Shown piece after piece: positions 7,808-42,105 of a stretch of DNA of 48,572 bases. The DNA is taken from NCBI GenBank assembly GCA_017883235.1, contig JADGNY010000005.1, positions 71,180 through 119,751 on the forward strand, written 5' to 3'. The first letter of the stretch is position 1; every line of letters starts with the position of its first letter. This DNA is from Thermoanaerobaculia bacterium. GTDB lineage: Bacteria > Acidobacteriota > Thermoanaerobaculia > Gp7-AA8. The notes under the pieces were generated by a model. It worked only from the letters and a program-made list of their open reading frames with translations. It was not told where the DNA came from and did not search any database. Both the position numbers and the translations under genes were made by a program.

Positions 7808-8110
7808 TCACCTCTGAAACGCGTACGACATTTGGATGAACAACTGCCTGCTCGCCAGCTTGTTGTCGGCGACATCGACGTCGCGCTCGTCGCCGAGGCC
7901 GACGAAGAGCACGGTTTGCCAGTTCAGTTTGTAGGCGAAGAAGAGCGACGACGTCACGTTGCCGCTGTGTTGATCGATCGAGTTGAGGAACAGCTCCTGA
8001 TTGTTGTTCGTCCGCACGTTCTGCACGATGCCGCGTACGTACATTCTCGAGTTGAGGGTGTACGTGGCCCGGATGCGCTCCACCTGCCCGCAGACAGACG
8101 AATCGTGTGA
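7808..8110 (-). pseudogene. Remnant of a DUF5916-type outer-membrane protein (C-terminal end)
   Basis: The minus-strand frame ending at 7808 reads RIRATYTLNSRMYVRGIVQN ... SLFFAYKLNWQTVLFVGLGDERD ... RQLFIQMSYAFQR, alternating polar/hydrophobic strands ending in an aromatic residue close to the terminus, like the last beta-strands of DUF5916 barrels. Only about 90 residues are recognisable; upstream sequence gives no related protein, no signal peptide and no ribosome site. The rest of the gene has been lost. The call rests on pattern only. Confidence 0.5.
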
Positions 8111-8265
8111 GCCAGGCCACCCGGCGGATTGTCTTCATGGTTCGTTGAGACGCATCGTGAAACCGAAAGTTAGCGTCCCGCCCTGCCTGATTCATTTCGT
8201 TGACCCCTCCGTTGTACGAAGTTGCTCGTAAGTTCAGCGGAAAGGTTTCAGTAAGTGCTGTGTGC

Positions 8266-19887: not shown

Positions 19888-20121
19888 TCATCCAGACGTT
19901 AGTAAACTTTGCCACAGGCAGTAGATGAGCCAATCGCGAAACCGATGTGGCACAGACTCTGTGCCTTGGGGCGGCACGAGCACCGCCTTCTGCAGTTTCT
20001 CGTGTATGGTCGGCATGACTTTGTCCACTAGGTCGAACGTGACCAGCCGCTTCCCGTTCTTCACCTCGATTTTCTGAGGATTGGAAGGCGAAGCGCTGCG
20101 CGCTTCGCCTTCCGCCATCAT
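19888..20121 (-). CDS. Short hypothetical protein, end made of repeat sequence
   Basis: About 77 residues. The ATG at 20121 overlaps the stop of the upstream secreted protein by one base (TGATG), so translation could be coupled. Residues IEVKNGKRLVTFDLVDKVMPTIHEKLQKAVLVPPQ look protein-like, but the first part is encoded by a GAAGGCGAAGCG palindrome and the last ~25 residues by the TGTGGCACAGAC repeat. It is probably a gene truncated by that repeat or a chance frame. Confidence 0.35.
   Translation of the reverse strand: MMAEGEARSASPSNPQKIEVKNGKRLVTFDLVDKVMPTIHEKLQKAVLVPPQGTESVPHRFRDWLIYCLWQSLLTSG
19921..19962. repeat. TGTGGCACAGAC-family repeat, short copy
   Basis: GTAGATGAGCCAAT followed by ACCGATGTGGCACAGACTC matches the left part of the copy at 42264-42405, including bases outside the hairpin. 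Only the left arm and a short return (TGTGCC) remain. Confidence 0.7.
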
Positions 20122-22484: not shown

Positions 22485-22727
22485 GAGACTCTCCCTCAAG
22501 TAGTTGAAGCGTTTATTGTGGAAACCGGACCCAGCGTGAGGGTATCACAGACCTCAGCTCGGCTCGGTGTGATCCGGATGAGTGCGCACCGACATGGGCG
22601 GCCCGAACGCGTCACGCAGCGTGGAGGAAGGAGCGGGTACCATCGTCTGGCTGGCGACGCTGTGTGCCTGCCACATTGGCCCCTGGCTTGCGGCGGCGGT
22701 CTAACCGGAGATCCTGACGCTCCCGGT

Positions 22728-26305: not shown

Positions 26306-29300
26306 TTAGCGGAGCTTCATGGTCGGATCGCCGAAGAAGATCCACGACTTGCGAATGTCCGGATCGGCGGCCACGAGTTTCGCGCGCGCCACGGCCTGAC
26401 CGAGCGTGAGTTTGTCAGGGCCGAAAAGCTGCCGGAAGAGCTCACGTCCCATCAGGGCCTGTTGATCGGGCAGGGTCAGCGCCGACGACGCCCACACGGC
26501 CACCGCGCCGCCGTTTGGCGCTTTCAACAACGCCTCGGCCAGACTCACCGAAAAGACATCATGGAACAGGCCGTTCAGGCAGTCCAGGGTCACGACTACC
26601 GGCAGCCGGCTGCCGTTGGTCAGCGTCGCCGCGTCCGTTGACGAGAACACGTAATCGGCCCAGATCTCGACCGAAGCATGACCGATATACGTGGCGAGCA
26701 GAGAGCCATTGTTCATCGCGGTCATGATGTCGTTGTGCGCCGAAGAGGTCGTGGCGAAGTCAATGGTCTGGCTGGTGAGCGACGACGGCAACAGCTTGGC
26801 AAGCGATACCGCCACGGAGCCGAAGTCGAAGTCGGCGGCGTGGTCGGCGATGAAGAGAGCCTTCCCGGCCCACGCGCCGCTCGGCGTGCCGCGTGACGCA
26901 ATCTTGCCGATGACCAGCGCCGCTTCGTCCGGTGTGCGCACCGGGATGCGGCCGACCGGGATGTCGGCGATGCCGTCATTGTTGAAGTCGGTGAACCAGT
27001 CATCGGAGGCCGTCTTGAGGAGGGTGGTGTCGACCTGTTTGGTTGGGACAAAGTCGAACGTTCCCTGGGCCAGATAGTCGCGCGGGTCAAAGCTGGCATC
27101 ACCGAGAAGCATGAAGGCGCCCGGTGCACGCTTCCAGCTCGCGGCAAGCTGGAAGAACGAGCGAATCGCTTCCGGCGAGCGGATGCCGAAATTGAACTCA
27201 TCGTAGAGATCATCGACGTCGACGATCGCGGTATTGGTTCCTTCTTTGTCGCGAACCGACTTCAACGTCCCCGCGGCGGGGATGAACAACTTGTTGCTGA
27301 CGATGTAGAAGTCAGCGGGCCCCTTCGCGCCGTTGCTGTTGCCGTTGGTATCGCTCCACGACGACGGCGTGTTCGCCGCCATTTCGCCAGGCGCGAGCAG
27401 GCGTGAGGCGTCAAAGGCCATCACCGTACGTGTAGCACCGGGGAATGTCGTGAACGTCGCGGCGAACCCTCCCTGCGGATCGACAGCGACCGTCGTCTGG
27501 AGCTCGGTGGGGTGTTGCGCGTCGGTGACATCGAGCGCGCGCACGGCGTTCGAGCCGAACCCGCCGATGGTCACGGCGCGGCCTCCGGCCAGATTCACGT
27601 CGAGCGCGCCATTGTCGGCGCGAAGGAGATGCTGATACGTCAGACGGGACTTCACCACCACGCTGACGTCCTCTTCGCCGTTCAGCGATGTCAGCGCAAC
27701 ACTGTTCGTGCCGGCGGTCAGCCAGGCCTGTGGAACGGTGAAGGTGAACGTCTGCAAGGTGAGCCGCGGCAGCGTGACGGTACCGAGGCTGCGGCCATTG
27801 AATGCCACGTCGATCGTGTGCGACACATCGGTCGCGCCGAGGATCACCAGATCCATGGTGGCGTTGCCGCCGTACGACGCATCGAAGTTGCTGCTGACCG
27901 TCAACGGCTCTGTGCCCGACTCACTCGTGATGAGCGTGCCGAAGAAAACGTCGTCGAGGGTCGAGATGGGGTTGAAGATGCTCCGCTCGATTCGCTCGAA
28001 CGTGAAGGGGACGCTGCCGGTGATGGGATCGCCGCCTTTCACCTTGGAGACGGTGACACGGCCGCCGCCGTTGCCCTTCGACGAGCGCAGCCAGTACGTG
28101 CGTGCGCCGGTGGAGACCGCATCGAGCGGGTATCCGTAGAACTCGATGGCATCGTTCGGATCGAACTTTCCGTCACCACCGTCGTCGACAGTGATCGACT
28201 GGTCGGTGCCGAGCATCGACAGCGAAATCGCGCGCGGATCGGTACCCGGGTCGTAGCCAGCCGCCGCCATGGCCGACCGCGTAAGGCGATACCACCCTTC
28301 CTGGGCGACATAGATCTTCAGGCCGTTGTCCGCGGCCAGTACGAGTTGCTGTTTGTACTGCGCCGGAGTGGCCGGCTCCTGCGCCGTGGCATGAGCGGCG
28401 CCGAAACCGTCGGGAGGCGTGAAGACATAGCCGCCCGCGCCGAGACCCGAAAGCGGCGAGGTATTCGGCGGGTTGGAGACGGTCCCCGATACAGGCAGGA
28501 CCGGTCCATGCATCGTGTGATGGCCAGCGGTATCGACATCCTCGAGCCAGTACTGCGCAAAAGTCCCTGGGGCGAGCTTGTCGTTGAAGCGGTAGACGTG
28601 ACCCGCCTCGCTATCGTGCTTCTTCGACCGCAGCGCCGTCCCGGCGATGAGATTCTTGCTGATCTTCGTCTGCTGTCCGGCCACGGTGCGATACAGATTG
28701 AAACCGAGGTTGTCGAACTCGTAACTCGTCTGCCACGCGATCTGGACGTTGCTCTTGTCCTGCGTGACCGTGAAGTCGCGCAGATGGACCAGCGTCACAG
28801 CGAGAACGGTGACGTTGGCTGTGGACGAGTCATTGCTCGGAACAGAGTCGACCTCCGTCCGCGTGACCGTCGCTGTATTCGTCACGGTACCCGTGGCGTT
28901 GGCCTGCACGATAACGTCGACGAACCCGGAGTTGCCGACCTCGAGCGTTCCGAGCGTGCAACTGATCGTCGTCGTACCGGAACAGGAACCGATGCTCGGG
29001 TTTGCGGAAACGAGACCGACCGTTCCCGGTAGCGGATCGTTGATCGTTACATTCGTGGCCACGGCCGGCCCGTTATTCGTGACCGTCAGGCGATAGGTGA
29101 TGTACTGGCCTTGGCCGACGGGATTGGGCGAGCCGGTCTTGACGATGCCAACGTCCGCGCTGTTGCGCGCGACCACCAGGTTCGTCGTTGAGGCACTGTT
29201 GTTCCCCGGGATATTGTCGGTCGAGGCGGTCGTGATCGAGGCATTGCAAGTCAGCGTCGTTCCGGCCGCCGTGGCCGGGCTCACCTGAACGACCGGCGAG

Positions 29301-32300
29301 AAGGTAGCGCTGGCGTTGGCGGCAAACGAGGCGATGGTGCAGGTGATGGTTCCGCCGGAGCCGACGGCCGGCGTGGCGCATGACCATCCGGCCGGGGGGG
29401 TGAGCGATTGGAAAGTCGTCCCAGCCGGCAACGGAATCGAGACGGAATCGGTCGTCGCTGCTGCCGGACCGTTGTTGGTGGCCACCACCGTGTATGTGTA
29501 GTTCTCGGCAGGGTAGACCGGATTCGGACTGTTGGAAATCGTGACCTGGACATCGCCGGAGCCGGCCGCAACGACCGTGGCCGAGACGCTGGCCGTGTTG
29601 TTCGGCAGATACGGGTCGCGCGAGCTGCTCGACACCGTCGGCGTGGCCGTGATCACCGTTGTGCCAGGAGTCACACCGACAGAGTTCACTTTCACGGTCA
29701 TCGGGAAACTAACCGACGCCCCCGAAGCGAGCGTTGCGCCGCTGCAGTTGATCGCACCCGTGTAGCCGACGCCCGGAGCAGCCGGCACGCACGTCCAGCC
29801 GGGAGGAATCGTGAACGACTGCAGCGTGGTGTTCGCCGGTACATTGATGCTGTAGGTCGGCACATTCGCCGTGAAGCTGCCGAGATTCGACACCGTTTGC
29901 GTATAGTTGATGTTCCCGCCCGGGACCGGCACATTCGTGTCCTGGGTAATCGTCACCGCCATGTCGGCGAATTTGTCGGCATCGAAAGCAGCCTCCATGA
30001 TCGTCGTGGCAGTGGCCTTGTTGTTTGCCGGGTTCGAGTCCGGTGTGTTGCTGGAAACGGAGTTTGTCTCCGACATGACATAGCCCGCGGGAGCGCCACC
30101 GGACGTGTTGACGACCAGCGAGAAGTTCGCGGTCGCGGCATTGGCAAGAGTGGGAGTCGTACAGACGACCACCCCCGTCCCGCCGACTGCCGGCAATACG
30201 CACGTCCAGCCGCCTGGCACCGACATGGAAACGAACGTCGAGCCGGCGGGAATGGGAGCCATGTAGGCGACGCCGTCGGCAGGGCTCGGACCGTTGTTGG
30301 TCACGGTCTGCGTGTACGTGAGATTGTTTCCCGCCTGCACGGCACCAGGAGCAACGTTCGTCACCGCCAGATCGGCGATCGCGCACGAGGCCCCATCGCC
30401 ACCGGGGAGGACGTTGTTTCCGGCGATCAGCTGAACATTTCCGACGGCGCCGGGCTGGGCGTCGTAGTCATCGAGAGCGGCCGTAGTCACACCGTTGATT
30501 CCGCCGGAGACGCTGGTCGAGGTGGGCGCGCTGGACAGCAGGATGAACCCGCCGCCGCCGCCGCCGCCGGGGCCGTGACGCTCGCCGGGATCGCCGGCCG
30601 GTGGCTGCAAGATCCACGCGCTGCCGCCGTTGCCGCCGTTGGCCTGCACGTTGAGCTGCGTCGTGGCGCCCTTGAGCGCGCCCACTTGCACGGTAAAGAG
30701 AACTGAGCCGCCGGCGCCGCCGCCGCCCGAGCCGTCGCGGCCGGTGTTGTAAGCATTGAAGCCGTTCGCGGTCAGCGTTGCCGTACCGGTTGCCTGCAAC
30801 GCCCGAATGATGATGATGCCTCCGCCATTCGCGCCGCTGCTGTAGTAACCGTTCGCAGAAGCTGCTGTGCCCGGACCAGCGTTATCGTCGGCCAGGACGT
30901 TCCCTGTCGCATCGGCGGCCGATCCGTTGTTCGTCGTGCCGGCACCGCCGCCGCCGCCCATGGTGATGCGGGTGAGTTTGGGTGTGATCGTGCTGCCACC
31001 CTGACCGCCGGAAGGATGGTTGCTGTTCCAGCTATTACCGCCCGGGCCTCCGCTTCCGCCGTTACCGCCACCACCGCCGCCGCTGTTATCGCCGTTATCG
31101 ACGGCTGGGTTTCCGTCCGTCGAGCCTCCGCCCGCATTGGCCGGCGCACCCCTTCCGAAGCTGCCGTTCACGTAGCCTTCGACGCCCGTGTCGAATGGTG
31201 CGTTGACTCCTGGAGCGCCAATGGCCGATCCGCTCTGGTACACCCAACGCGGCGTTCCAGCGATCCCCTCGCCCTTCGATCCGTTCGCCGTATTGATCGA
31301 CAAGGCCGCATTGGGGGCGAGCGTTCGGAAATCGGTGAAGACGTCTGCCGCGGTCGACGGGACGGGACCGCTTTTCAGCTTGATGCCGCCACCACCACGG
31401 AATCCGAGACCGTCTACAGAAACCGTCGCACCTCCAAGCGCCATCGTGCCGCTGACATCGATCGCCAGGACGCCGCCAGTCGCGCCGTTCCATGGCAGTG
31501 CAGTCAACGTCGAGCCGAGCGTCGCGGTGCTGTACTGCGGGACGCGGATGACCTGGAACGTGCGCTGTCCTTGGGTTGTCGTCGCTGCAAACGCCTGCGC
31601 TGTGTATGTGTAGAGCAGACCGCCGCCGGCACCGCCGCCTGCGATGGTGATCGTGCCGCCCGCCGCCGCAATCCCGCCCCCGGGATTCGTGGCCGTGACG
31701 ACGGCGTACTCCCATCGGCCGGCGTTGTTCAGAGCCGTGGCCGCACCGCTGCCGGTACCGGTGGCGCGGGTGGAGCCTGTGCCTTCACCGTACGTTTCGT
31801 CATTCGTCGTATCGAAGGCCGCGTCCTGCATCTGCATGACCATGACGAGATCGCCGGTGGCGAGGTTGACGAGGGCACCGTTTGTATTACGAGTGCCCAC
31901 GACGATGCTCGTCCCGCCTGCGTTCACCGTCGTCGTGCCCGGCCAGTAGTCGTTCTTGATGCCGCCGAGGTTGCCGCCGACGCCATCCTTGCCCGGCGTC
32001 GCGCAGATCTTGGCTTCGGTAAGCGTGTTGATCGTTTCCGAGAAGTTGGTCTTTACGTTTCCGTTCCAAGCCACCGTTGCCGTGTTGGAAATGGTTCCGG
32101 CCGTATTGGCGATGACCGTGATGGTGATCGGCGCTGAGGTCGCACCTGCCGCCAGAGTGCCGATGTTGCAGGTGACCGGTGCCGATCCCGCGCAGCCGGT
32201 CTGCAACTCGAACGTCGCGCCGACGGGGATGGCGTCGGTGATGATCACGTTCAGGACACTCGCTGCACTGTAGTTCGTTGCCTGCAGCGTATAGGTGATC

Positions 32301-33742
32301 GAGTCGCCGAGCTTGATGACGTCCGAGGTAGTGGTCTTGCTCAGTGCCACCGAAACCGCCTTCAGCGGAATCGCTTCGATGGCCCAGTTGGCGGATGTGG
32401 TATTCCAGGCCATGGCGATGTTCGTGTAGCCGCGCGCGCCGCTGCTCCCCGAGGCGAAGGCCGGCGCGGCCGTATTCGTGTTCCAGCGGATATCCTGATT
32501 GAGGTTCGTGACCAGCGCCGTGTTGCCGGCGAATCCAACGACGTCGACGACGTAGTCATAGGGCGTGTTCGCCGTCGTGACCGTGGCAGTCGCGCTGCTT
32601 CCGTTTGCGCCGGCGACCGTTCCGGTTGGCCCAAACTGGTCGACGCCGCTGAACGTCTGCGCACCGGCGGTAACGGCCAGCGTGCGATTGGCGGTATTCG
32701 TCACCGTTACGTTGATCGTGTTCGTACCGCTGGCGGGATTCGCTAAACCCCATAGCTCGGTGCGTACCGAGGTCCCTCGCGTTTGCCCGCCGAGCAACAC
32801 CATTGGCGTACCGCCGTACGTGACACCGCTGACGCCCAGATTCGCCCCGACCGTACCGCCGTTAAGGTTGATCGACACGCCGACGACGACGTAGCGATTC
32901 GCGGCGGTGGTGGTCGTGTGGGTCCAGCTCACCACGAAGGGATTTGTGTTCCCCGTCAGACCTGTCGTTGCGCGGCTGGCGGCGTCGAACAGAATCTGCG
33001 GACTGGCCGACTGCAACGGAACGGCGACCTCGGCCCACGCCTGGGCAACACCAGTAGCGGTCCATCCCATCGCCGCATTCGCGGCACCGGTCCTGGTACC
33101 TGAGGCGCCGGAAAAGGCCGGCGCGCCGCTGGTCTGATTGAAGGTGTTGGTCTGCCCGGATGCCGGCGTCAGCGCGACGTTGTTGTTGTATGCGACAGAG
33201 TCGACCACGTAGTCGAACACGCCGTTGGCGGTGGTCACCGACGGCGCGAGGGTCGTGCCCGTCGCTGTGACAGCCGCTCCGTTTGGCGCCGTCTGAAACA
33301 CGTTGCTGAACGATTTCGCGCTCGCGATGACGACGGTGTTCGTTCCGCCGCCCCCGTTGGCGACCGTCACCGTGATCTGGTGAGTTCCGGATGTCGGATT
33401 GGCAAGGCCGTAGATTTCGGCACGATCGATGGTTCCGTTGTTGACGCTGCCCAGGAGCGTCATCGCCTGCTTGGGACCACCGACTTCGGTTCCGAAGACG
33501 ACAGCGCCGGTCTGCGCGCCGCCGTTTTTCTCGATCGCCACGCTCACGGTGAGGTACGGTTTCTTGGCCGTTCCAATCGTGTGATTCCAGGATACGGGGA
33601 TTGAAGCGGCCGTCGACACGGTTGCCGTCGCGGCATTCGAAGCGGCGTCGAAGACCACCTGAGCCGTGGCCGGAGCGGCGCACAGGAGCGCAAACACAAC
33701 CGGAACGACGAATGACCGGACGAAACGAATCGACTGCCTCAT
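26306..33742 (-). CDS. Giant secreted C25 (gingipain-like) cysteine peptidase with DUF11 repeats
   Basis: About 2478 residues. A signal peptide (MRQSIRFVRSFVVPVVFALLCAAPATAQ) and a GAGGAG site fix ATG 33742. Order: two related ~210-residue beta modules (FDAASNAATATVS and FDAASRATTGLTG), one DUF11 domain (~480), a Gly-rich region (about 580-1110, with GGGGGGNGGSGG near 890), four DUF11 domains (about 1120-1645), an Fn3-like segment (TSYEFDNLGFNLYR, ~1670), a C25 propeptide-like part, and the C25 peptidase with candidate catalytic His in TYIGHAS (~2354) and Cys in TLDCLNG (~2388). It ends at GDPTMKLR with no sorting domain visible. Gingipain-family enzymes process surface proteins; here secretion route and substrates are unknown. 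Confidence 0.88.
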   Translation of the reverse strand: MRQSIRFVRSFVVPVVFALLCAAPATAQVVFDAASNAATATVSTAASIPVSWNHTIGTAKKPYLTVSVAIEKNGGAQTGAVVFGTEVGGPKQAMTLLGSVNNGTIDRAEIYGLANPTSGTHQITVTVANGGGGTNTVVIASAKSFSNVFQTAPNGAAVTATGTTLAPSVTTANGVFDYVVDSVAYNNNVALTPASGQTNTFNQTSGAPAFSGASGTRTGAANAAMGWTATGVAQAWAEVAVPLQSASPQILFDAASRATTGLTGNTNPFVVSWTHTTTTAANRYVVVGVSINLNGGTVGANLGVSGVTYGGTPMVLLGGQTRGTSVRTELWGLANPASGTNTINVTVTNTANRTLAVTAGAQTFSGVDQFGPTGTVAGANGSSATATVTTANTPYDYVVDVVGFAGNTALVTNLNQDIRWNTNTAAPAFASGSSGARGYTNIAMAWNTTSANWAIEAIPLKAVSVALSKTTTSDVIKLGDSITYTLQATNYSAASVLNVIITDAIPVGATFELQTGCAGSAPVTCNIGTLAAGATSAPITITVIANTAGTISNTATVAWNGNVKTNFSETINTLTEAKICATPGKDGVGGNLGGIKNDYWPGTTTVNAGGTSIVVGTRNTNGALVNLATGDLVMVMQMQDAAFDTTNDETYGEGTGSTRATGTGSGAATALNNAGRWEYAVVTATNPGGGIAAAGGTITIAGGGAGGGLLYTYTAQAFAATTTQGQRTFQVIRVPQYSTATLGSTLTALPWNGATGGVLAIDVSGTMALGGATVSVDGLGFRGGGGIKLKSGPVPSTAADVFTDFRTLAPNAALSINTANGSKGEGIAGTPRWVYQSGSAIGAPGVNAPFDTGVEGYVNGSFGRGAPANAGGGSTDGNPAVDNGDNSGGGGGGNGGSGGPGGNSWNSNHPSGGQGGSTITPKLTRITMGGGGGAGTTNNGSAADATGNVLADDNAGPGTAASANGYYSSGANGGGIIIIRALQATGTATLTANGFNAYNTGRDGSGGGGAGGSVLFTVQVGALKGATTQLNVQANGGNGGSAWILQPPAGDPGERHGPGGGGGGGFILLSSAPTSTSVSGGINGVTTAALDDYDAQPGAVGNVQLIAGNNVLPGGDGASCAIADLAVTNVAPGAVQAGNNLTYTQTVTNNGPSPADGVAYMAPIPAGSTFVSMSVPGGWTCVLPAVGGTGVVVCTTPTLANAATANFSLVVNTSGGAPAGYVMSETNSVSSNTPDSNPANNKATATTIMEAAFDADKFADMAVTITQDTNVPVPGGNINYTQTVSNLGSFTANVPTYSINVPANTTLQSFTIPPGWTCVPAAPGVGYTGAINCSGATLASGASVSFPMTVKVNSVGVTPGTTVITATPTVSSSSRDPYLPNNTASVSATVVAAGSGDVQVTISNSPNPVYPAENYTYTVVATNNGPAAATTDSVSIPLPAGTTFQSLTPPAGWSCATPAVGSGGTITCTIASFAANASATFSPVVQVSPATAAGTTLTCNASITTASTDNIPGNNSASTTNLVVARNSADVGIVKTGSPNPVGQGQYITYRLTVTNNGPAVATNVTINDPLPGTVGLVSANPSIGSCSGTTTISCTLGTLEVGNSGFVDVIVQANATGTVTNTATVTRTEVDSVPSNDSSTANVTVLAVTLVHLRDFTVTQDKSNVQIAWQTSYEFDNLGFNLYRTVAGQQTKISKNLIAGTALRSKKHDSEAGHVYRFNDKLAPGTFAQYWLEDVDTAGHHTMHGPVLPVSGTVSNPPNTSPLSGLGAGGYVFTPPDGFGAAHATAQEPATPAQYKQQLVLAADNGLKIYVAQEGWYRLTRSAMAAAGYDPGTDPRAISLSMLGTDQSITVDDGGDGKFDPNDAIEFYGYPLDAVSTGARTYWLRSSKGNGGGRVTVSKVKGGDPITGSVPFTFERIERSIFNPISTLDDVFFGTLITSESGTEPLTVSSNFDASYGGNATMDLVILGATDVSHTIDVAFNGRSLGTVTLPRLTLQTFTFTVPQAWLTAGTNSVALTSLNGEEDVSVVVKSRLTYQHLLRADNGALDVNLAGGRAVTIGGFGSNAVRALDVTDAQHPTELQTTVAVDPQGGFAATFTTFPGATRTVMAFDASRLLAPGEMAANTPSSWSDTNGNSNGAKGPADFYIVSNKLFIPAAGTLKSVRDKEGTNTAIVDVDDLYDEFNFGIRSPEAIRSFFQLAASWKRAPGAFMLLGDASFDPRDYLAQGTFDFVPTKQVDTTLLKTASDDWFTDFNNDGIADIPVGRIPVRTPDEAALVIGKIASRGTPSGAWAGKALFIADHAADFDFGSVAVSLAKLLPSSLTSQTIDFATTSSAHNDIMTAMNNGSLLATYIGHASVEIWADYVFSSTDAATLTNGSRLPVVVTLDCLNGLFHDVFSVSLAEALLKAPNGGAVAVWASSALTLPDQQALMGRELFRQLFGPDKLTLGQAVARAKLVAADPDIRKSWIFFGDPTMKLR

Positions 33743-33992: not shown

Positions 33993-34409
33993 TTATTGCT
34001 GAAACCGAACTCGCAGCCGGCGGACGAGCACCGCTGCAAAACATATTATTGTCGCACTTTTCGGGCCCGTTTTGCGAACATTTGTGGACCCGTCAACCTG
34101 CGCGACGCGCCCGAGAACCTCCGCGGGACCGACCGGGGGATCGCTCCAAAACGAGTTATCACCGCGCGTTGTGATCCGCGGAGAACCGCCGCGCTCGCTG
34201 ATGCGCACGACGCGATGGGCGGTCAATCCCCGATCCGTCGCCGTCAGAACGACGTCGCCGCGGCGCAGCTCCGACATCCCGCACGGGACGATATGCAGAT
34301 AGTCGCCACTGCGGATAGCCGGATACATGCTGTCACCGGAAGCAAGGAAACGGGCGGTGTGCCCCGCCGCAAGAAGCTCGCGCAGGGTCGGCTCGAATTC
34401 GCTCATGCC
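33993..34409 (-). CDS. S24/S26-type peptidase (signal peptidase-like) of the RiPP cluster
   Basis: A 138-residue peptidase domain. The catalytic Ser lies in ASGDSMYPAIRSGD (S26), and the second catalytic position is His in TAHRVVRI (H64) instead of Lys, as in the Ser/His S26B signal peptidases; RGDNSFWSDP is the conserved third box. No clear membrane helix precedes the Ser, so it is a minimal, possibly cytoplasmic form. The ATG at 34409 overlaps the end of the kinase-like gene. Peptidases of this type occur beside PqqD and HprK-like proteins in peptide-modification clusters; removing the leader peptide of the precursor at 35300 is a reasonable role (inference). Confidence 0.75.
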   Translation of the reverse strand, partial: GMSEFEPTLRELLAAGHTARFLASGDSMYPAIRSGDYLHIVPCGMSELRRGDVVLTATDRGLTAHRVVRISERGGSPRITTRGDNSFWSDPPVGPAEVLGRVAQVDGSTNVRKTGPKSATIICFAAVLVRRLRVRFQQ

Positions 34410-35278
34410 GCGCTCCGAATGCAGTCGATGACGCTCCGGTCCGGCAGAAAGCGGAGGGCGCGCACAGGGAGATCGCGAACGATTCGATCGAGGCATTCCA
34501 GGGTGAAGGCAACCGCGCCGGCATCGTAGAACGGCGGAAAGGTGCAGCCGAAGAGCGTTGCAGCCGCCTGCGCTGGCGGAAGGGAGACCAGCTCCGTTCG
34601 CGACGCCTGCACGAGGAGATGGATCGCGCCGAGCGGCGCAGAAACTGGAGACGAAAGTTTCGCCTCGCCGTGCCACGGAGTACCGAACATCCTCCATTCA
34701 CCATCGACGAAGCGGACGATCACGCGGTCGTCGCTGACGATTTCGTAATCGCCCTCGGACAGCCAGACCTGCGCGGTCGTCGTCTTTCCGGCGCCCGACT
34801 GTCCGACGAAGAGCTGCCCGCGGCCGTCGCGGTCGATGATGCCGCAGCCGTGCAGTTCCACACCGCGGCCGCGGCCGAGGAGATGCGCGACCATCACCTC
34901 GTCGAGCGGATAGTCGAGCGCGTGCATCTCGTCCGTGACGACATCCCGCCGCATGAGGATGCGTCCTTCGCGAAGGTCGCGATCGAAGAACGCCACTTTG
35001 TACGGCACGTCGCCGCCGAGGTCGCTGGAACAATCGATACGCAGGCCACCGCCATCCTCGAAGGCGCGCCAGACCCCACCGGAATCGAACAAAAGGCGGC
35101 CGGGCGGCGGCAGAGCATCAGGCATCGCATCGATCGTGACCGTGACGTCCGCATCGGCGGATGAAGTGATCGCGAAGCGGCTGGCCGTCTCAGACAGCGG
35201 GCAGCGAAGCGACTCATCCGCATAGCGGATGCGGATGGAAATGCCGGCGATGCAAAGAACTTCACTCGCGGAGCTCAT
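34403..35278 (-). CDS. HPr kinase-like ATPase of the RiPP cluster
   Basis: A 291-residue protein with an HprK-like C-terminal domain: P-loop GQSGAGKTT (159-167), SDDRVIVRFVDGEWRMFGTPWHGEA carrying the kinase-type Asp and His, and a helical end. The N-terminal half (FDSGGVWRAFEDGGGLRI ... RILMRRDVV) is the domain usual in HprK-related proteins of RiPP clusters rather than of carbon-catabolite HprK. It may phosphorylate a peptide or another cluster component, or act as an NTP switch; none of this is proven. Starts 21 nt after the precursor stop and overlaps the peptidase gene, so it belongs to the same operon. Confidence 0.8.
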   Translation of the reverse strand: MSSASEVLCIAGISIRIRYADESLRCPLSETASRFAITSSADADVTVTIDAMPDALPPPGRLLFDSGGVWRAFEDGGGLRIDCSSDLGGDVPYKVAFFDRDLREGRILMRRDVVTDEMHALDYPLDEVMVAHLLGRGRGVELHGCGIIDRDGRGQLFVGQSGAGKTTTAQVWLSEGDYEIVSDDRVIVRFVDGEWRMFGTPWHGEAKLSSPVSAPLGAIHLLVQASRTELVSLPPAQAAATLFGCTFPPFYDAGAVAFTLECLDRIVRDLPVRALRFLPDRSVIDCIRSAA

Positions 35279-35299
35279 TCTGGGAACGTTACCGCCGGA

Positions 35300-35470
35300 C
35301 TACGATCCGGGAACGCTGCAAGCCGAAGAGCCGCGGCAACCCAATTGGAAGGGACCGCTGGACGCGTTCGTCTTGCAGAATCCGAGGACCGCTTCGTCCG
35401 GACGGAGCGGAAAGCGCTTCGCCTCGGGCTTCTCGTACTTCTTCTTCTCGTTGCCTGTCTGCTGTTGCAT
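35300..35470 (-). CDS. Putative RiPP precursor peptide (56 residues, three Cys in the core)
   Basis: MQQQTGNEKKKYEKPEAKRF, then PLRPDEAVLGFCK and a Gly/Ser/Cys-rich end with C32, C45 and C51 (FQLGC, SSACSVPGS). The charged N-terminal leader with YEKPE...L.PDEAVLG.CK and the small-residue core have the look of radical-SAM-modified peptides; I have seen similar KPE/EEAVL.CK leaders but know no named product. The ATG at 35470 has GGAAGGGG about 6 nt upstream; an ATG two codons earlier (35476) is too close to it. It sits 16 nt after the radical SAM gene and 21 nt before the kinase-like gene. Coding status rests on position, ribosome site and composition. Confidence 0.72.
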   Translation of the reverse strand: MQQQTGNEKKKYEKPEAKRFPLRPDEAVLGFCKTNASSGPFQLGCRGSSACSVPGS

Positions 35471-35486
35471 GGTCATCCCCTTCCGA

Positions 35487-36770
35487 CTAAAGAGCCACCG
35501 CGCTGGTAATGGAACAGCTTCCACAACTTCCCGTGCCGCATCCGCCCGCGGCAGGACGGGCCGCCGGCTCGTACGGTATGGCCGCAATCCGTTCCGCCTC
35601 TCCCGACTTCAATGCCTCGGCCGCCGAACGAACGAGCTCGTATCCCGTCCCTTCCTTGCAGTACTCGCAATCCCCGTGGGGCCGCACGGGGATGTCGAGA
35701 GTCTCGGCACGAAGGTGCGCCACCTGGCAGAGGAAGTCGACGGGCGACTCCGCGTCTCCGTTCTCGAGCTCGCCGTTTGCCGCGCACATCCCGCACATCG
35801 ACTTGAGGCCGCAGCCGTTGCACTTCGTCGGCCGGGTGGTCTTCCGCGTGCGCACGGCCAGGAGGTACTTCTCCCATCCTTCCCGGAAGTTGCCCTCGCG
35901 GACGTTGTAATGGTCGACGTGCGAGAGCACGCAGATCGAAAGGTCGCCATACGGATCGACGGCGAAGGAGTTGAGCCCGCCGCCGCACTCGTAAATCTGA
36001 CGCGGCTCCCCTTCGATCAAAACGGGCGACCCATGATCGCGTGCCAGCCGCCGCCATTCGGAAACGCGCTCGAGGTTCTCGAGATCGAGCTGCACGATCT
36101 CCGAGGGCTTCAGCCGCACCGCCAGCGGACTGGCCGAGCAGTCGATGCGCGGGTTGATCATGGCGTCGAAGGTGAACTCGACGCCGCGGTCCGTGGCCAT
36201 CTGCCTCATGAGCGGAATCTCGTGCTTATTGATCGAAAGCGCCACCGTCTTCAGTTTCAGCGGCAGCTTTCGCTCCAGCAGCAGGTCGATTCCGCGAAGG
36301 CAGCGGTCATACGATCCCGGGATTCCGGTCAGTTTTTCGTAGGTTTCCTTCGTGCCGCCGTAGAGCGTGATCTCCATCGTGAACGGCCGCAGGTCGGCCA
36401 GAAAGTCGGCGATCTTCTCCGTGATCAGCGTCCCATTGGTGAAGAGCGTGATGAGGAAGCCTTTGCGCTTGGCATAGGCGTAAATATCGAGGAAGTCGCG
36501 CCGCGCGAAAATCTCGCCGCCGGAGAAGAGCAGCCACAGGCAACCGAGCTCGGCCAGCTCATCGAGCAGCCTCTTGTGCTCGTCGAGCGACATCTCGCGG
36601 GCACGAGCCACGAAATCGCCCATCGGGAGGTTGTTGTAGCAGTGTTTGCACTCCAGCGGGCAGCGGTTGGTGACCTCGATCGTGCCATTGACCGGTACGC
36701 GCAGCGGCTCGGCCCTGCCGTGGACGGCGAGGCTGAAGTCTAAATAGGTGCCGGTTTCCATTGCGCTCAT
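35487..36770 (-). CDS. Radical SAM/SPASM peptide maturase
   Basis: A 427-residue enzyme. EVTNRCPLECKHCYNN holds the CxxxCxxC cluster (C37, C41, C44) for the 4Fe-4S centre that cleaves S-adenosylmethionine; LLFSGGEIF is the SAM-binding GGE motif. The SPASM domain starts near YECGGGLNSFAVDPYGDLSIC and continues with KCNGCGLKSMCGMCA and FLC, enough Cys for two auxiliary clusters. An unusual tail, GGCGTGSCGSCSITSAVAL, adds three Cys and looks like a peptide core itself. Enzymes of this type install thioether or C-C links on ribosomal peptides. The start (ATG 36770) overlaps the PqqD stop by 4 nt. Confidence 0.93.
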   Translation of the reverse strand: MSAMETGTYLDFSLAVHGRAEPLRVPVNGTIEVTNRCPLECKHCYNNLPMGDFVARAREMSLDEHKRLLDELAELGCLWLLFSGGEIFARRDFLDIYAYAKRKGFLITLFTNGTLITEKIADFLADLRPFTMEITLYGGTKETYEKLTGIPGSYDRCLRGIDLLLERKLPLKLKTVALSINKHEIPLMRQMATDRGVEFTFDAMINPRIDCSASPLAVRLKPSEIVQLDLENLERVSEWRRLARDHGSPVLIEGEPRQIYECGGGLNSFAVDPYGDLSICVLSHVDHYNVREGNFREGWEKYLLAVRTRKTTRPTKCNGCGLKSMCGMCAANGELENGDAESPVDFLCQVAHLRAETLDIPVRPHGDCEYCKEGTGYELVRSAAEALKSGEAERIAAIPYEPAARPAAGGCGTGSCGSCSITSAVAL

Positions 36771-37069
36771 GGTTTCGCCTCGATCGCCGCGCCGATCAGA
36801 TCCGCTGCCTCCATCGTGCCGAGAAGCTCGTCGAGGTCGGCACGGACGACACCGTCATCGGCATCGTACTCGTTGCAGATCTCGGCGACGATGGCATCGA
36901 TGTCGCGGTTACCGTCGAGGAGAGCCCAGATTCGCGCCGCCACGGGGGTGAAGACGAAGACCGAATCGAGATCGCCGACGTGATTGCGGATCGGCACGAG
37001 GATGCTCTCACTGCCTACCTGCCGCAGCGCAAATTCACCGCGGTGCGCAAACACCCGTCTGTCCGTCAT
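36767..37069 (-). CDS. PqqD-family peptide chaperone (RiPP recognition element)
   Basis: A 100-residue PqqD-like winged-helix protein that binds leader peptides and delivers them to a radical SAM enzyme. FALRQVGSESILVPIRNHVGDLDSVFVFTPVAARIWALLDGNRDIDAIVAEICNEYD shows the expected beta-hairpin, the IW.LLDG turn and the helix-turn-helix, followed by VVRADLDELLGTMEAADLI. ATG 37069 is preceded by an in-frame TTG that is less likely. It is the first gene of the minus-strand cluster; the 127-nt gap to the divergent exporter gene holds the promoters of both. Confidence 0.88.
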   Translation of the reverse strand: MTDRRVFAHRGEFALRQVGSESILVPIRNHVGDLDSVFVFTPVAARIWALLDGNRDIDAIVAEICNEYDADDGVVRADLDELLGTMEAADLIGAAIEAKP

Positions 37070-37195: not shown

Positions 37196-38287
37196 ATGAG
37201 CACGAATCCGTTCCCCGTCGCGCCGCCCGCCGCGGTCGAGGCTGATGACGCTCCGCCGATTGCCCCCCGAGGGCGCCCCTCCAACGAGGACATCGCCGCG
37301 TGGGTGATCTTCGGGGGACTGCTTCTTTACATCCTGATGCGGCACCTTGTCTCCGGCGTGGTCGGCGGCCTGGTGCTCTATCTCGTCCTCGATCGCCTCT
37401 CGCAATCATTCTCGAAGCGCATGCCGGGGAAGACGGCACGGCCGCTGGCGCTCATCCTCGTCACGCTCGTCGGCGGCGGGCTCATCTTCGGCGTCGTCGC
37501 TCTGCTCATCTCCTTCGCCCGGCACCATGCCGACAACATCCCGGCCATCATGACCAAGATGGCCGACATCCTTCAGTCGACGCGCGCCTGGCTCGGCGAC
37601 TACGGCGAGCAGCTCATCCCCGAGGTCATGACCGACGCGGAGACGATCAAGGCCGCGCTCGCGGTCTGGCTCAAGGAACACGCGGAAACGCTCAAACTCG
37701 CCGGCAGTTCGTTCAGTTACGGCATCCTGCACATGGTCATGGGCATGCTGCTGGCGGTGCTCGTCTTCTTCCGGCACGCCACGCATCATCCCGACCGCCG
37801 TCCCGGGACGCTCAGCGAAGTGCTGGAAGAGAAGGTCGAGCACTTCACGCGCGCCTTCGCCCAGATCGCTACCGCGCAGGTGAAGATCTCCGTGCTGAAC
37901 ACGGCCCTGACGGCGCTCTATCTGCTGGTCGTGCTGCCGCTCTTCGGTCAGCACATCCCGTTCGCCACGACGATCGTCTTCGTGACCTTCGTCTGCGGAT
38001 TGATCCCGATCCTCGGCAATCTGATCTCCAACACCGTGATCGTGATCCTCTCCCTCGGCATCTCGCCCGGGACGGCCATCGCCTCGCTCCTGTTCCTCAT
38101 CATCATCCACAAGCTCGAGTACCTGACCAACTCCCGCATCGTCGGCGGCGAGACCGACTCCCAGGCCTGGGAGATCCTCATGGCCATCCTGATCGGCGAG
38201 ACCGCTTTCGGCATCAGCGGCGTGGTCATGGCGCCGATCATGTACGCGTTCGTCAAACGCGAGCTGCGCGCGCGCGGGCTGGTATAG
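37196..38287 (+). CDS. AI-2E/TqsA-PerM family membrane transporter
   Basis: A 363-residue polytopic protein of the AI-2E exporter family (members export autoinducer-2 or exchange ions; the substrate here is unknown). Two N-terminal hairpins of helices (WVIFGGLLLYILMRHLVSGVVGGLVLYLVLD and LALILVTLVGGGLIFGVVALLI) are followed by a polar domain (HHADNIPAIMTKMADIL ... HFTRAFAQIATAQVKIS), then further helices with FVCGLIPILGNLISNTVIVIL and GISGVVMAPIMYAFVKREL, typical of the family. It is divergent from the RiPP cluster; there is no other transporter near that cluster, so a role in peptide export is conceivable but unsupported. Confidence 0.88.
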   Translation: MSTNPFPVAPPAAVEADDAPPIAPRGRPSNEDIAAWVIFGGLLLYILMRHLVSGVVGGLVLYLVLDRLSQSFSKRMPGKTARPLALILVTLVGGGLIFGVVALLISFARHHADNIPAIMTKMADILQSTRAWLGDYGEQLIPEVMTDAETIKAALAVWLKEHAETLKLAGSSFSYGILHMVMGMLLAVLVFFRHATHHPDRRPGTLSEVLEEKVEHFTRAFAQIATAQVKISVLNTALTALYLLVVLPLFGQHIPFATTIVFVTFVCGLIPILGNLISNTVIVILSLGISPGTAIASLLFLIIIHKLEYLTNSRIVGGETDSQAWEILMAILIGETAFGISGVVMAPIMYAFVKRELRARGLV

Positions 38288-38529
38288 CTCGGCCTGGCGA
38301 ACTGCCGCACCACGCCGAACCGCGCCGCGTCTCCCGGCGGCCGTCTTCGTTTTCACCCTCGGCGCGTGTACGCCAGTATTTTCAGGATAGCCATGCGCCG
38401 TGTCGCGATAGGCGGCATTACTTCCTGACGTTGGCACTGAAATATGATGTGCTGGTAATTAGTTATTGCGTCCAACCGCATCCAACCAAAGCCCAACGTC
38501 CTTCCAATTCAAACACTGAGGAGATTCCT

Positions 38530-41500
38530 TTGTCTCATTCGTCAAGATTCGTCTGCGTATTGGCTGCTGCCGTGATGTTCGCGGCGGTGTTTCCAGCGTC
38601 TGCCCTGACGCCCGCGGCTCACGGCAGCCTGGCGGGCGCCTACGGCAAGCTACCCCTCACCTTCGAGATCAACAACGGACAAACCGACCCCGCGGTCAAA
38701 TTCCTCAGCCGGGGAAAAGGCTACTCCCTCTTCCTCACTCCGGCCGGCGCGACCCTCCGGTTGAATGGCAGGAACGAGACGTCCGTCGTGCGCTGGCAGA
38801 CTGTCGGCGGCAACCGCAATCCGCTCATGATGGGAGTGGACCCTCTTGCCACGAAGAGCAACTACTTCATCGGCGATGACCCGAAGAAGTGGCATGCGGA
38901 TGTCCCCAATTACGCGAAGGTGCGGGCCGAGCGGGTCTATCCCGGTATCGACCTCGTCTATCACGGCAACCGGCGGCAGGTGGAGTACGACTTCGTCGTC
39001 GCGCCGAAGGCGAATCCCAACCGTATCCGCCTCGCCTTCAAGGGCATCGAATCGATGCGGATCGGAGAGCACGGCGATCTGATCCTGCACACAGCCAACG
39101 GCGACCTGATGCAGCCACGCCCGCTCGTTTACCAGGAGATCGATGGCAAGCGGCAGGTGATTGAAGGCAGCTACGCATTACTGCCGAAGAATGAAGTCGG
39201 CTTCGCACTCGGACAATACGACCGCAACCGGCAGCTCACCATCGATCCCGTCCTGCTGTATTCCACATTCCTTGGCGACACCGACCTCGATGAATGTCTC
39301 GCCATCGCGGTCGACAGCTCCGGCAATGCATATCTTACCGGCCTCGTCGCATCGACCTCGTTCCCCGGCGTCACCGGCAGCTCGATCCAGCCATCGAACG
39401 GCTTCGACTATGACGCCTTCGTCACGAAAATCAACGCCGTTGGCACGGCCATCGTCTATTCGACGTTCCTGGGAGGTAACGGCGGCAACGAATACGGTCT
39501 TGGGATCACAGTCGACAGCTCGGGCAATGCGTACATCACGGGCGCAACGAACTCGACCAACTTCCCTGGTACGAGCGGCAGCTCGATCCAATCCTCCTTC
39601 GGCGGCGGCGTCCGGGACAGCTTCGCCACGAAGATCAACGCGGCCGGCTCGGCGATCGTTTACTCGACCTACCTCGGCGGCAGCGACGACGATCTGGCCT
39701 GGGGCATCGCCGTTGACAGCTCGGGCAATGCCTACGTAGCTGGCGATACCGGATCCTCCACCTTTCCCGGCGTCACCGGCAGCTCCATCGAGCCGACGAA
39801 CAACGGCGGCGCTTTCGTGACGAAGATCAACGCCGCCGGCACTGCCACCGTCTACTCGACATTCTTCGGCGGCACGGCCGGAGCCAGCCTCGCCAGCATC
39901 GCAGTCGACAGTTCGGGCAACGCATATGTCGGCGGTTACACGGGATCGAGCGGTTTCCCGGGCATCAGCGGCAGTTCGCTTCAGTCCACCTTCGCCGGAG
40001 GCGGCGGCGACGGCATTATCTCGAAGATCAACGCCACTGGAACGGCCATCGTCTGGTCGACGTACCTCGGCGATACCGGTTTCGACGAGATTGCGGGGAT
40101 CAAAATCGACGGGGCGGGCGACATCTACGTGGCGGGCAACACCGACTCCACCTCGTTTCCAGGTGTCACCGGGAGCTCCATCCAATCGAGCAATGCCGGC
40201 GACCACGACGCGTTCGTGACAAAGATCAATGGTGCGGGCACAGCGATCGTGTACTCCACGTTCGTCGGCGGCAATGACCTGGATGTCGTGTCGTACGGCG
40301 CGTTCGCGATCGATTCCTCAGGCAACGCCTACGTCGGAGGCGGAACATTGTCGACGACCTTCGCAGGCATCACCGGCAGTTCGATCCAGCCGTCAAACGC
40401 TGGCAGCTCCGACGCGTTCATTACCAGAATCAATGCGGCGGGCACCGCATTCGATTTCTCAACGTTCCTCGGTGGCGCCGGTGACGAAACCATCGCCGGC
40501 ATCGCAACCGATGGTTCCGGCAACGTGTATGTAGCCGGCTACAGCTCCTCGACGGATTTCCCCGTGACCGCGGGCTCGATCCAGACGACCTACGGCGGCG
40601 GAGACGTCGATGGCTTCGTGGTGAAGATCGGCCCTCCGGGATCCCCTGTGATCAGCAGCATCAGCCCGTCCACCGGCCGCACCGGCGATCAGATCACCAT
40701 CACCGGCACCGGCTTCGACAACGTGCAGGGCAGCGGCAACGTCTGGCTCGGCAGCAACTACGCCGGCAGTGTCGTGAGCTGGAGCAACACACAGGTCGTG
40801 GCCACGATCGCGTCGGGCGTTTCGTCCGGCGTCGCCCAGATCTACCAGAGCGGGGTCTGGAGCAACACCGCCAGCCTGACGGTGGTCACGCCGCACATCA
40901 CCAGCATCAGCCCGTCGAGCGGCTACCCGGGCGACCAGATCACCATCACCGGCACCGGCTTCGGCTCGTCGCAGGGCAGCGGGAACGTCTGGCTGGGCAG
41001 TACCTACGGCACCGTGGTGAGCTGGAGCGACACGCAGGTGGTGGCCAGCATTGCATCCAACGCCACGTCCGGCGTGGCGCAGATTCTCCAGAACGGTGTG
41101 TGGAGCAACACCGTCAGCCTGACGGTGGTCAGACCGACCATCACCAGCATCAGCCCGTCGACCGGACGGGCCGGCGATCAGATCACCATCACCGGCACCT
41201 CCTTCGGATCGACACAAGGCAGCGGCAACGTCTGGCTCGGCAGCACCTACGGCACGGTGGTGAGCTGGAGCAACACACAGGTCGTGGCCACCATCGTCTC
41301 CGGCGCCACGTCCGGCGTCGCCCAGATTTACCAGAACAGCATCTGGAGCAACACCCTCAGCCTGACCGTGGTCACGCCGCACATCACCAGCATCAGCCCG
41401 TCGAACGGCTACCCCGCGGACCAGATCACGATCACCGGCACCGGCTTCGGATCGACTAAAGGCAGCGGCAACGTCTGGCTCGGCAGCACCTACGGCACGG

Positions 41501-42105
41501 TGGTGGGCTGGAGCGACACGCAGGTCGTGGCCAGCATCGCTTCCAACGCCACGTCCGGAGTGGCGCAGGTTCTCCAGAACGGCGTGTGGAGCGATACCGT
41601 CAGCCTGACGGTGGTCAGGCCGACTATCACCAGCATCAGTCCGTCGAGCGGCCGCGCGGGAGACCAGATCACCATCACCGGCACCTCCTTCGGAGCGTCG
41701 CAAGGCAGCGGCAACGTCTGGCTTGGCAGCACCTACGGCACGGTGGTGAGCTGGAGCGACACGCAGGTCGTGGCCACCATCGTCTCCGGCGCAACGTCCG
41801 GCGTCGCCCAGATCTACCAGGCCAGCATCTGGAGCAACACCATCAGCCTCACGGTCGTCACCCCGTCGATCACCGGCATCAGCCCGAATCACGGCACGAC
41901 GGGCACGCAGGTCACCATCACCGGCACCGGCTTCGGAACGACGCAAGGCGGCGGCCACGTCTGGCTCGGCAGCACCTACGGCACGGTGGTGAGCTGGAGC
42001 GACACGCAGGTCGTCGCCAGCGTGGCATCGGGCGCCTCCGGCGGCGTCGCGCAGATCCTCCAGAACGGCGTCTGGAGCAACACCATCAGCTTCAGCGTCC
42101 CCTAG
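38530..42105 (+). CDS. Secreted SBBP beta-propeller protein with six IPT/TIG repeats
   Basis: A 1191-residue exported protein. The TTG start at 38530 follows a GAGGAG site by 6 nt and gives a signal peptide (SSRFVCVLAAAVMFAAVFPASALT). The next ~230 residues (LTFEINNGQTDPAVKFLSRGKGYSLFL ... KSNYFIGDDPKKWHADVPNYAKVR) are the module shared with the protein at 20121-22484; about eight SBBP repeats follow (IAVDSSGNAYVTGxxxSTxFPG). From about residue 705 there are six IPT/TIG immunoglobulin-like repeats of 81 residues (ITSISPSxGxxGDQITITGTxFG ... SLTVV). The last repeat ends the protein, with no anchor. Adhesion or scaffold roles are guesses; function unknown. Confidence 0.9.
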   Translation: MSHSSRFVCVLAAAVMFAAVFPASALTPAAHGSLAGAYGKLPLTFEINNGQTDPAVKFLSRGKGYSLFLTPAGATLRLNGRNETSVVRWQTVGGNRNPLMMGVDPLATKSNYFIGDDPKKWHADVPNYAKVRAERVYPGIDLVYHGNRRQVEYDFVVAPKANPNRIRLAFKGIESMRIGEHGDLILHTANGDLMQPRPLVYQEIDGKRQVIEGSYALLPKNEVGFALGQYDRNRQLTIDPVLLYSTFLGDTDLDECLAIAVDSSGNAYLTGLVASTSFPGVTGSSIQPSNGFDYDAFVTKINAVGTAIVYSTFLGGNGGNEYGLGITVDSSGNAYITGATNSTNFPGTSGSSIQSSFGGGVRDSFATKINAAGSAIVYSTYLGGSDDDLAWGIAVDSSGNAYVAGDTGSSTFPGVTGSSIEPTNNGGAFVTKINAAGTATVYSTFFGGTAGASLASIAVDSSGNAYVGGYTGSSGFPGISGSSLQSTFAGGGGDGIISKINATGTAIVWSTYLGDTGFDEIAGIKIDGAGDIYVAGNTDSTSFPGVTGSSIQSSNAGDHDAFVTKINGAGTAIVYSTFVGGNDLDVVSYGAFAIDSSGNAYVGGGTLSTTFAGITGSSIQPSNAGSSDAFITRINAAGTAFDFSTFLGGAGDETIAGIATDGSGNVYVAGYSSSTDFPVTAGSIQTTYGGGDVDGFVVKIGPPGSPVISSISPSTGRTGDQITITGTGFDNVQGSGNVWLGSNYAGSVVSWSNTQVVATIASGVSSGVAQIYQSGVWSNTASLTVVTPHITSISPSSGYPGDQITITGTGFGSSQGSGNVWLGSTYGTVVSWSDTQVVASIASNATSGVAQILQNGVWSNTVSLTVVRPTITSISPSTGRAGDQITITGTSFGSTQGSGNVWLGSTYGTVVSWSNTQVVATIVSGATSGVAQIYQNSIWSNTLSLTVVTPHITSISPSNGYPADQITITGTGFGSTKGSGNVWLGSTYGTVVGWSDTQVVASIASNATSGVAQVLQNGVWSDTVSLTVVRPTITSISPSSGRAGDQITITGTSFGASQGSGNVWLGSTYGTVVSWSDTQVVATIVSGATSGVAQIYQASIWSNTISLTVVTPSITGISPNHGTTGTQVTITGTGFGTTQGGGHVWLGSTYGTVVSWSDTQVVASVASGASGGVAQILQNGVWSNTISFSVP
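40645..42105 (+). repeat. Six tandem 243-bp coding repeats (IPT domains)
   Basis: Units begin near 40645, 40891, 41134, 41377, 41620 and 41863; the first carries one extra codon. Units 2 and 4 and units 3 and 5 are most alike (GYPxDQ ... LQNGVWS versus GRAGDQ ... IYQxSIWS), with alternating VVTPHI/VVRPTI joints, so the array grew by duplication of a two-domain, 486-bp block. Confidence 0.88.

Follow-up and report, generated by a model that had tools for sequence, protein, structure and literature searches.

A predicted radical SAM, HprK-like kinase and S26 peptidase cassette for peptide maturation, linked to giant C25 peptidase genes in Acidobacteriota

In the current analysis we have characterised a five-gene cassette in a stretch of 48,572 nucleotides from a Thermoanaerobaculia bacterium (GCA_017883235.1, contig JADGNY010000005.1, positions 71,180 to 119,751), referred to here as the window. 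It encodes a PqqD-like protein, a radical SAM/SPASM enzyme, a small cysteine-containing precursor, an HprK-like kinase and an S26 peptidase. We consider it probable that these genes specify a pathway for a ribosomally synthesised and post-translationally modified peptide (RiPP), in which the radical SAM enzyme, the kinase and the S26 peptidase process the precursor and a giant C25 peptidase encoded next to them acts on or with the product. What the comparison shows directly is which genes are present and in what order, their conservation, linkage and purifying selection, and the catalytic residues and folds of their products. The observation on which the original prediction was founded, made from the DNA letters alone, is confirmed, and its interpretation is partly supported. 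The features concerned are the following.

36767-37069, minus strand: PqqD-like discrete RiPP recognition element (RRE), 100 residues, ATG at 37069 (Pfam PqqD, E=2e-14)
35487-36770, minus strand: radical SAM/SPASM peptide maturase, 427 residues (Pfam Radical_SAM, E=1e-21; SPASM match weak)
35300-35476, minus strand: precursor peptide, 58 residues (56 from the second ATG, at 35470), with homologues at 77 of 80 radical SAM loci
35381-35437, minus strand: precursor leader segment Y14-G32, from the YxxP motif through the invariant VLG (30-32) before xCK, taken from alignment columns
35303-35305, minus strand: codon of the C-terminal serine (S58) of the precursor, predicted kinase target, from conservation of the last residue
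34403-35278, minus strand: predicted HprK-like peptide serine kinase, 291 residues (match to the HPr kinase C-terminal family below threshold; assigned from motif and fold)
33993-34406, minus strand: predicted leader peptidase of S26 archaeal signal-peptidase-like type, 137 residues (NCBIfam sigpep_I_arch, E=5e-12, slightly below the cut-off; Pfam Peptidase_S24, E=2e-6)
26306-33742, minus strand: giant secreted DUF11/Peptidase_C25 protein, about 2478 residues from a probable ATG at 33742 (Pfam DUF11, E=5e-73; Peptidase_C25, E=4e-72)

The five minus-strand genes have the positions and strands first claimed for them, overlapping or lying within about 20 nucleotides of each other. The radical SAM gene overlaps the PqqD-like gene by 4 nucleotides, as does the S26 gene the kinase gene; the precursor begins 10 or 16 nucleotides after the radical SAM stop, depending on whether the first or the second ATG is used, and a gap of 21 nucleotides separates it from the kinase gene. 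The giant C25 gene is co-directional with the cassette and follows 250 nucleotides downstream. Because this gene comes next and its homologues are often fused to the S26 domain, the cluster extends past position 33993, and the limit originally placed there was too short.

A search with the radical SAM alignment, in which each species was represented by one genome, has given 80 named loci. Most are from Acidobacteriota, while labels such as Myxococcales, Deltaproteobacteria, Desulfobacterales or Nitrospirae are attached to some; these names are labels of metagenome-assembled genomes and are taken as given. A precursor homologue is encoded at 77 of the 80 loci, and the order PqqD-radical SAM-precursor-HprK-S26 is complete in 58, a count in which the S26 match is often the fused form and outside which several loci end at contig ends. 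Among 61 related genomes the radical SAM gene is found at strong E-values in 12, all of them with a precursor homologue that nearly always adjoins it. A profile built from 11 precursors recovers the family in 46 of 396 genomes of the phylum, weak matches counted. The precursor open reading frame is under purifying selection, with a ratio of non-synonymous to synonymous substitution rates (Ka/Ks) of about 0.14 against the nearest relative, similar to that of the neighbouring genes. Since precursor homologues accompany nearly all the radical SAM genes, mostly in the same gene order, the five genes, judged by these comparisons, are not a chance assembly. The original prediction had proposed a neighbourhood search from the radical SAM protein and had named a missing precursor or an unconserved leader as counter-evidence; the search finds all five genes in order at the 58 loci, and the presence of the precursor, the conserved gene order, the Ka/Ks value and the invariant columns of the leader point the other way.

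Two unusual loci have also been seen. In a rearranged cassette (L190 / L042, G027:C111) the precursor and kinase genes are divergent from the PqqD and radical SAM genes, and a C25 gene still lies downstream of the kinase. An orphan precursor of the same family (L082, G379:C96:2000-18000, at 8049-8216) has no cassette enzymes detected nearby; its genome has two full cassettes elsewhere (L088 and L099), so that processing in trans is possible.

The leader of the window precursor carries a YxxPxA motif followed by LRPDEAVLG, the family consensus being YxxP...LRPEEAVLGxCK. Eleven columns are invariant in 78 sequences, namely Y14, P17, L24, V30, L31, G32, C34, K35, C47, C53 and S58. The predicted core in the window is FCKTNASSGPFQLGCRGSSACSVPGS; across the family it has 24-29 residues with at least three cysteines in nearly all sequences, and is otherwise variable, with only the three conserved cysteines, glycine and the C-terminus kept. 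A conserved leader and a variable core encoded beside modifying enzymes at 77 of the 80 loci bear out the earlier claim of a RiPP cassette. Against the curated NCBIfam and Pfam models the precursor reaches no family, with one weak single-member match at most. Signal peptidases usually prefer particular residues at -3 and -1, and V-x-G satisfies this preference. Because of this fit, and because the position following VLG is occupied by F, N, H, S, A or G in different sequences, cleavage of the leader may be placed after G32. The segment Y14-x-x-P17-x-A19 conforms to [Y/W]xxPx[L/V/I/A/F/Y], the motif bound by RREs of the lasso peptides and of the linear polyphosphorylated peptides (LPPs; PMC13381572). 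Divergent precursors from several genomes of the phylum (L106-L120) have WxxP in place of YxxP (KKKWxxPxLIVLVRxRPEEAVL..CK...S), and their cassette enzymes are often distant or duplicated; this parallels the W/Y discrimination reported for RREs of Bacillota.

The last residue of the precursor is serine in 114 and threonine in 3 of 117 distinct sequences, divergent ones included. The kinase of the window has the motif H143-K165-D183-D184, conserved at 94-100% in 78 sequences, and its AlphaFold model (pLDDT 94) adopts the PEPCK/HprK fold, with Z 13.5 over 240 residues and a root mean square deviation of 5.1. The C-terminal serine of the precursor is the phosphorylation site of lasso peptide kinases of the PadeK/ThcoK type, which require the His-Lys-Asp-Asp (HKDD) motif (PMC9266682). 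Because of the HKDD motif, the PEPCK/HprK fold and the invariant C-terminal serine, phosphorylation of this serine by the HprK-like kinase is the best reading, which narrows to one predicted site the possible phosphorylation suggested earlier. The threonine-ending precursors allow no decision on the coupling of kinase and serine, as the kinase is not detected in one locus (L085) and present in another (L100), and the third precursor is an orphan (L120).

The S26 protein of the window has a triad S26-H64-D83 that is conserved at 99-100% across relatives, so that the Ser/His assignment made at first holds and the third catalytic residue, aspartate, is conserved as well. LppS (PMC13381572) is an archaeal-type peptidase related to signal peptidase I (SpI) that removes the LPP leader with the assistance of the RRE and has the residues S29/H68/D93. 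As the two triads are equivalent, homology gives good support to the S26 protein as the putative leader peptidase.

The radical SAM enzyme has its CxxxCxxC motif at positions 37, 41 and 44 and SPASM cysteines at 262, 280, 317, 320, 326, 329 and 348; these cluster-binding cysteines are all present and are invariant in relatives. The solved structures nearest to it in sequence are PqqE and SkfB, and the folds nearest to its model, which is only moderately confident (pLDDT 78), are SkfB, MoaA, PqqE, SuiB and CteB. Its action at cysteine is plausible, solely because the cysteines are the main conserved residues of the core. A cysteine-rich C-terminal tail, GGCGTGSCGSCS in the window (35487-35560), has been noticed on the enzyme itself, and a similar tail of the form C-x(3-5)-C-x2-C occurs in about 24 of 81 relatives (among L121-L198); it resembles a core peptide or a metal site.

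Behind its signal peptide, MRQSIRFVRSFVVPVVFALLCAAPATAQ, the giant protein has five DUF11 repeats, and at its C-terminus lies a Peptidase_C25 domain of gingipain type. This domain scores 244 bits where the Pfam cut-off is 23, and the catalytic His/Cys dyad lies in GHAS (2397) and DCLNG (2430). In many relatives the stop-to-stop frame of the S26 protein runs on for 1000-1940 residues into a protein like the giant gene product of the window. Of the named loci, 49 extend 5.5 kb or more past the kinase; 47 of these have an S26 match and 43 a match to the giant protein, and in 34 the S26 domain is fused to it in frame. C25 domains are uncommon, being present in 24 of the 61 related genomes with at most 4 per genome. 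Yet a C25 gene lies within about 11 kb of the cassette in 10 of the 12 cassette genomes (in G012 on the opposite strand); of the remaining two, G028 is cut by a contig end and G016 is without a nearby C25 gene. The fusion and the linkage together argue for a functional tie, still a predicted one, between the cassette and the giant C25 protein. The C25 protein may process, release or display the peptide, or may itself be regulated by it.

We infer each chemical step, the cleavage site and the part played by the C25 protein as follows. The PqqD-like RRE would bind the YxxP motif of the leader and hand the precursor to the three enzymes, of which the radical SAM/SPASM enzyme would most likely crosslink the core, once or more often, at its three conserved cysteines. 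The HprK-like kinase would phosphorylate the side chain of the invariant C-terminal serine, as PadeK and ThcoK do on phosphorylated lasso peptides, and the S26 SpI-like peptidase would cut off the leader, probably after the invariant V-L-G, so that some 26 residues remain as the core. Outside the cytoplasm the product would be acted on, or joined in its action, by the giant Sec-exported C25 peptidase, which is often one polypeptide with the S26 domain. The most far-reaching form of this scheme is an unlikely one: a RiPP class with a three-cysteine peptide crosslinked by the radical SAM enzyme and ending in phosphoserine, in which the leader peptidase within the giant Sec-exported C25 protein would couple peptide release to surface display, activation or inhibition of the protease.

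The closest known module is that of the LPPs (lppA/B/K/S/N; Popov et al. 2026, PMC13381572), most of which are from Bacillota. A discrete RRE, an HprK-like kinase, an archaeal-type SpI peptidase with Ser-His-Asp and the YxxP leader motif are common to both. The LPPs differ in having no radical SAM enzyme (the word 'radical' is absent from the paper), and their precursor consensus, YxxPxVLxHQxIxFETxxS with core Ser3, has only YxxP in common with the leader described here, which runs LRPEEAVLGxCK. LPP clusters also include an NTP transferase (NTP, nucleoside triphosphate) and an MsbA-like transporter, neither of which was found beside the window cassette, where no exhaustive ABC scan was made; the C25 partner has no counterpart in the sections of the paper compared here. 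The original prediction knew of no characterised product with this gene set, which stands for the full set, for which none was found, but not for the sub-module of RRE, HprK-like kinase and SpI peptidase, characterised in 2026 (PMC13381572). In the open-access literature searched for radical SAM enzymes with HprK and SpI, radical SAM enzymes with C25, and kinase-bearing sactipeptides and ranthipeptides, no description of the full set, the precursor or the C25 partner was found.

It is very improbable that the cassette is a low-scoring member of a named system such as SynChlorMet, GeoRSP, the sactipeptides or the lasso peptides. The phosphorylated lasso peptides (paeninodin with PadeK/ThcoK, and pseudomycoidin) share with it an RRE, an HKDD HprK-like kinase and a strictly conserved C-terminal serine, and some relatives of the cassette have nearby a gene for an NTP_transf_5 protein, whose family follows the kinase step in pseudomycoidin. 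They use a macrolactam cyclase and a B2 peptidase, however, in place of which the present cassette has a radical SAM enzyme, an SpI peptidase and a three-cysteine core; no Asn_synthase-like macrolactam cyclase or B2 transglutaminase-like peptidase is found on the window contig (C56), the matches of the genome being on C88 and other contigs. SynChlorMet has the same three enzyme classes (ScmC HprK-like, ScmD PqqD-like, ScmE/F radical SAM), although with two radical SAM genes instead of one. Matches to its models and to those of GeoRSP are found below cut-off, but they fall far short: 30.8 bits against 125 for ScmC, 22.5 against 100 for ScmD, 85.3 against 400 for ScmE and 46.4 against 400 for ScmF, with 65.1 against 400 and 22.5 against 100 for the GeoRSP radical SAM and PqqD models. 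Sactipeptide and ranthipeptide maturases (SkfB, CteB, PapB) are alike in the radical SAM/SPASM fold and in a cysteine-containing precursor, and the three conserved cysteines and the peptide-maturase fold are compatible with thioether chemistry of their kind, from cysteine to an alpha, beta or gamma carbon; the difference is that here the RRE is separate, with none fused at the N-terminus, and is accompanied by a kinase and an SpI peptidase. The precursor, too, has no counterpart among curated models beyond the weak match noted above. Membership in the named families is thus refuted at the model cut-offs, and distant common ancestry is possible.

Several observations weigh against the pathway as proposed, or leave its kinase step ambiguous. 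In genome G016 the five genes occur and a nearby C25 gene is absent, and at three of the 80 loci neither a profile nor inspection by eye gave a precursor: L131, which may be frame-shifted, and L149 and L157, which are rearranged or truncated. No transporter was found adjoining the window cassette, which is flanked by the C25/DUF11 and AI-2E genes and was not scanned exhaustively for ABC proteins. The C-terminal serine could be kept for recognition by the radical SAM enzyme or the peptidase, and no kinase-less cassette with a precursor lacking Ser/Thr was found, so that kinase and serine are not separated. In the LPPs, moreover, the serine modified by the LppK kinase is S3, close to the beginning of the core, rather than one at the C-terminus (PMC13381572). 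This last point and a core rich in Ser/Thr favour a kinase that acts on another core Ser/Thr in the manner of LppK, with the C-terminal GS kept as a recognition or export signal; yet the last residue, Ser/Thr in all 117 sequences, is the only invariant Ser/Thr column in the core, and the HKDD lasso kinases target exactly this residue, which makes such a kinase unlikely. Only slightly less unlikely is that the peptide, instead of being a diffusible product, serves the giant C25 protein as cofactor or in its maturation, as a radical SAM-modified activator, a propeptide-like inhibitor or a covalently attached group. The linkage of C25 to the cassette in most relatives, its fusion to the leader peptidase and the usual absence of a dedicated transporter (an ABC exporter cluster at 11 of about 130 loci) speak for it, but a core variable save for the cysteines, glycine and the C-terminus is more like that of a natural product, in some genomes with the cassette (G016) C25 is absent or not linked to it, and numerous C25 genes are found where there is no cassette.

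The RiPP pathway preferred here would represent a predicted, undescribed family, widespread in Acidobacteriota and extending to loci that carry other labels, Myxococcales and Desulfobacterales among them. It would unite radical SAM modification with RRE-guided phosphorylation of a C-terminal serine, a pairing not met in the literature searched, and would mean that SpI-type leader peptidases, first known from RiPPs in 2026, are not confined to Bacillota. The gene fusion would provide a first functional lead for the giant DUF11/C25 proteins.

Among the neighbouring genes, 24 loci have one of the NTP_transf_5 family close to the cassette or to its relatives, and 11 have an MsbA-like ABC transporter. 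Nothing in the window matches the NTP_transf_5 protein of genus relatives, and the best PF14907 match of the genome is on another contig (C203); an NTP transferase is accordingly rejected as a member of the window cassette. A divergent AI-2E family transporter gene (37196-38284, plus strand) adjoins the cassette in genus relatives and lies nearby in some family members. Export of the product by this protein had been suggested; as it is a neighbour in close relatives only (the window, G001, G002, G012 and G016), it is rejected as the cassette exporter and placed outside the system.

On either side of the region a large protein with DUF7948 and SBBP beta-propeller repeats is encoded (20121-22499, minus strand, and 38500-42105, plus strand); the latter also has six TIG domains and seems inserted relative to G001. 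Outside the window, the same genome has adjoining Asn_synthase-like and Transglut_core3 genes (G000:C88:54858-56542), which likely form a separate lasso cluster.

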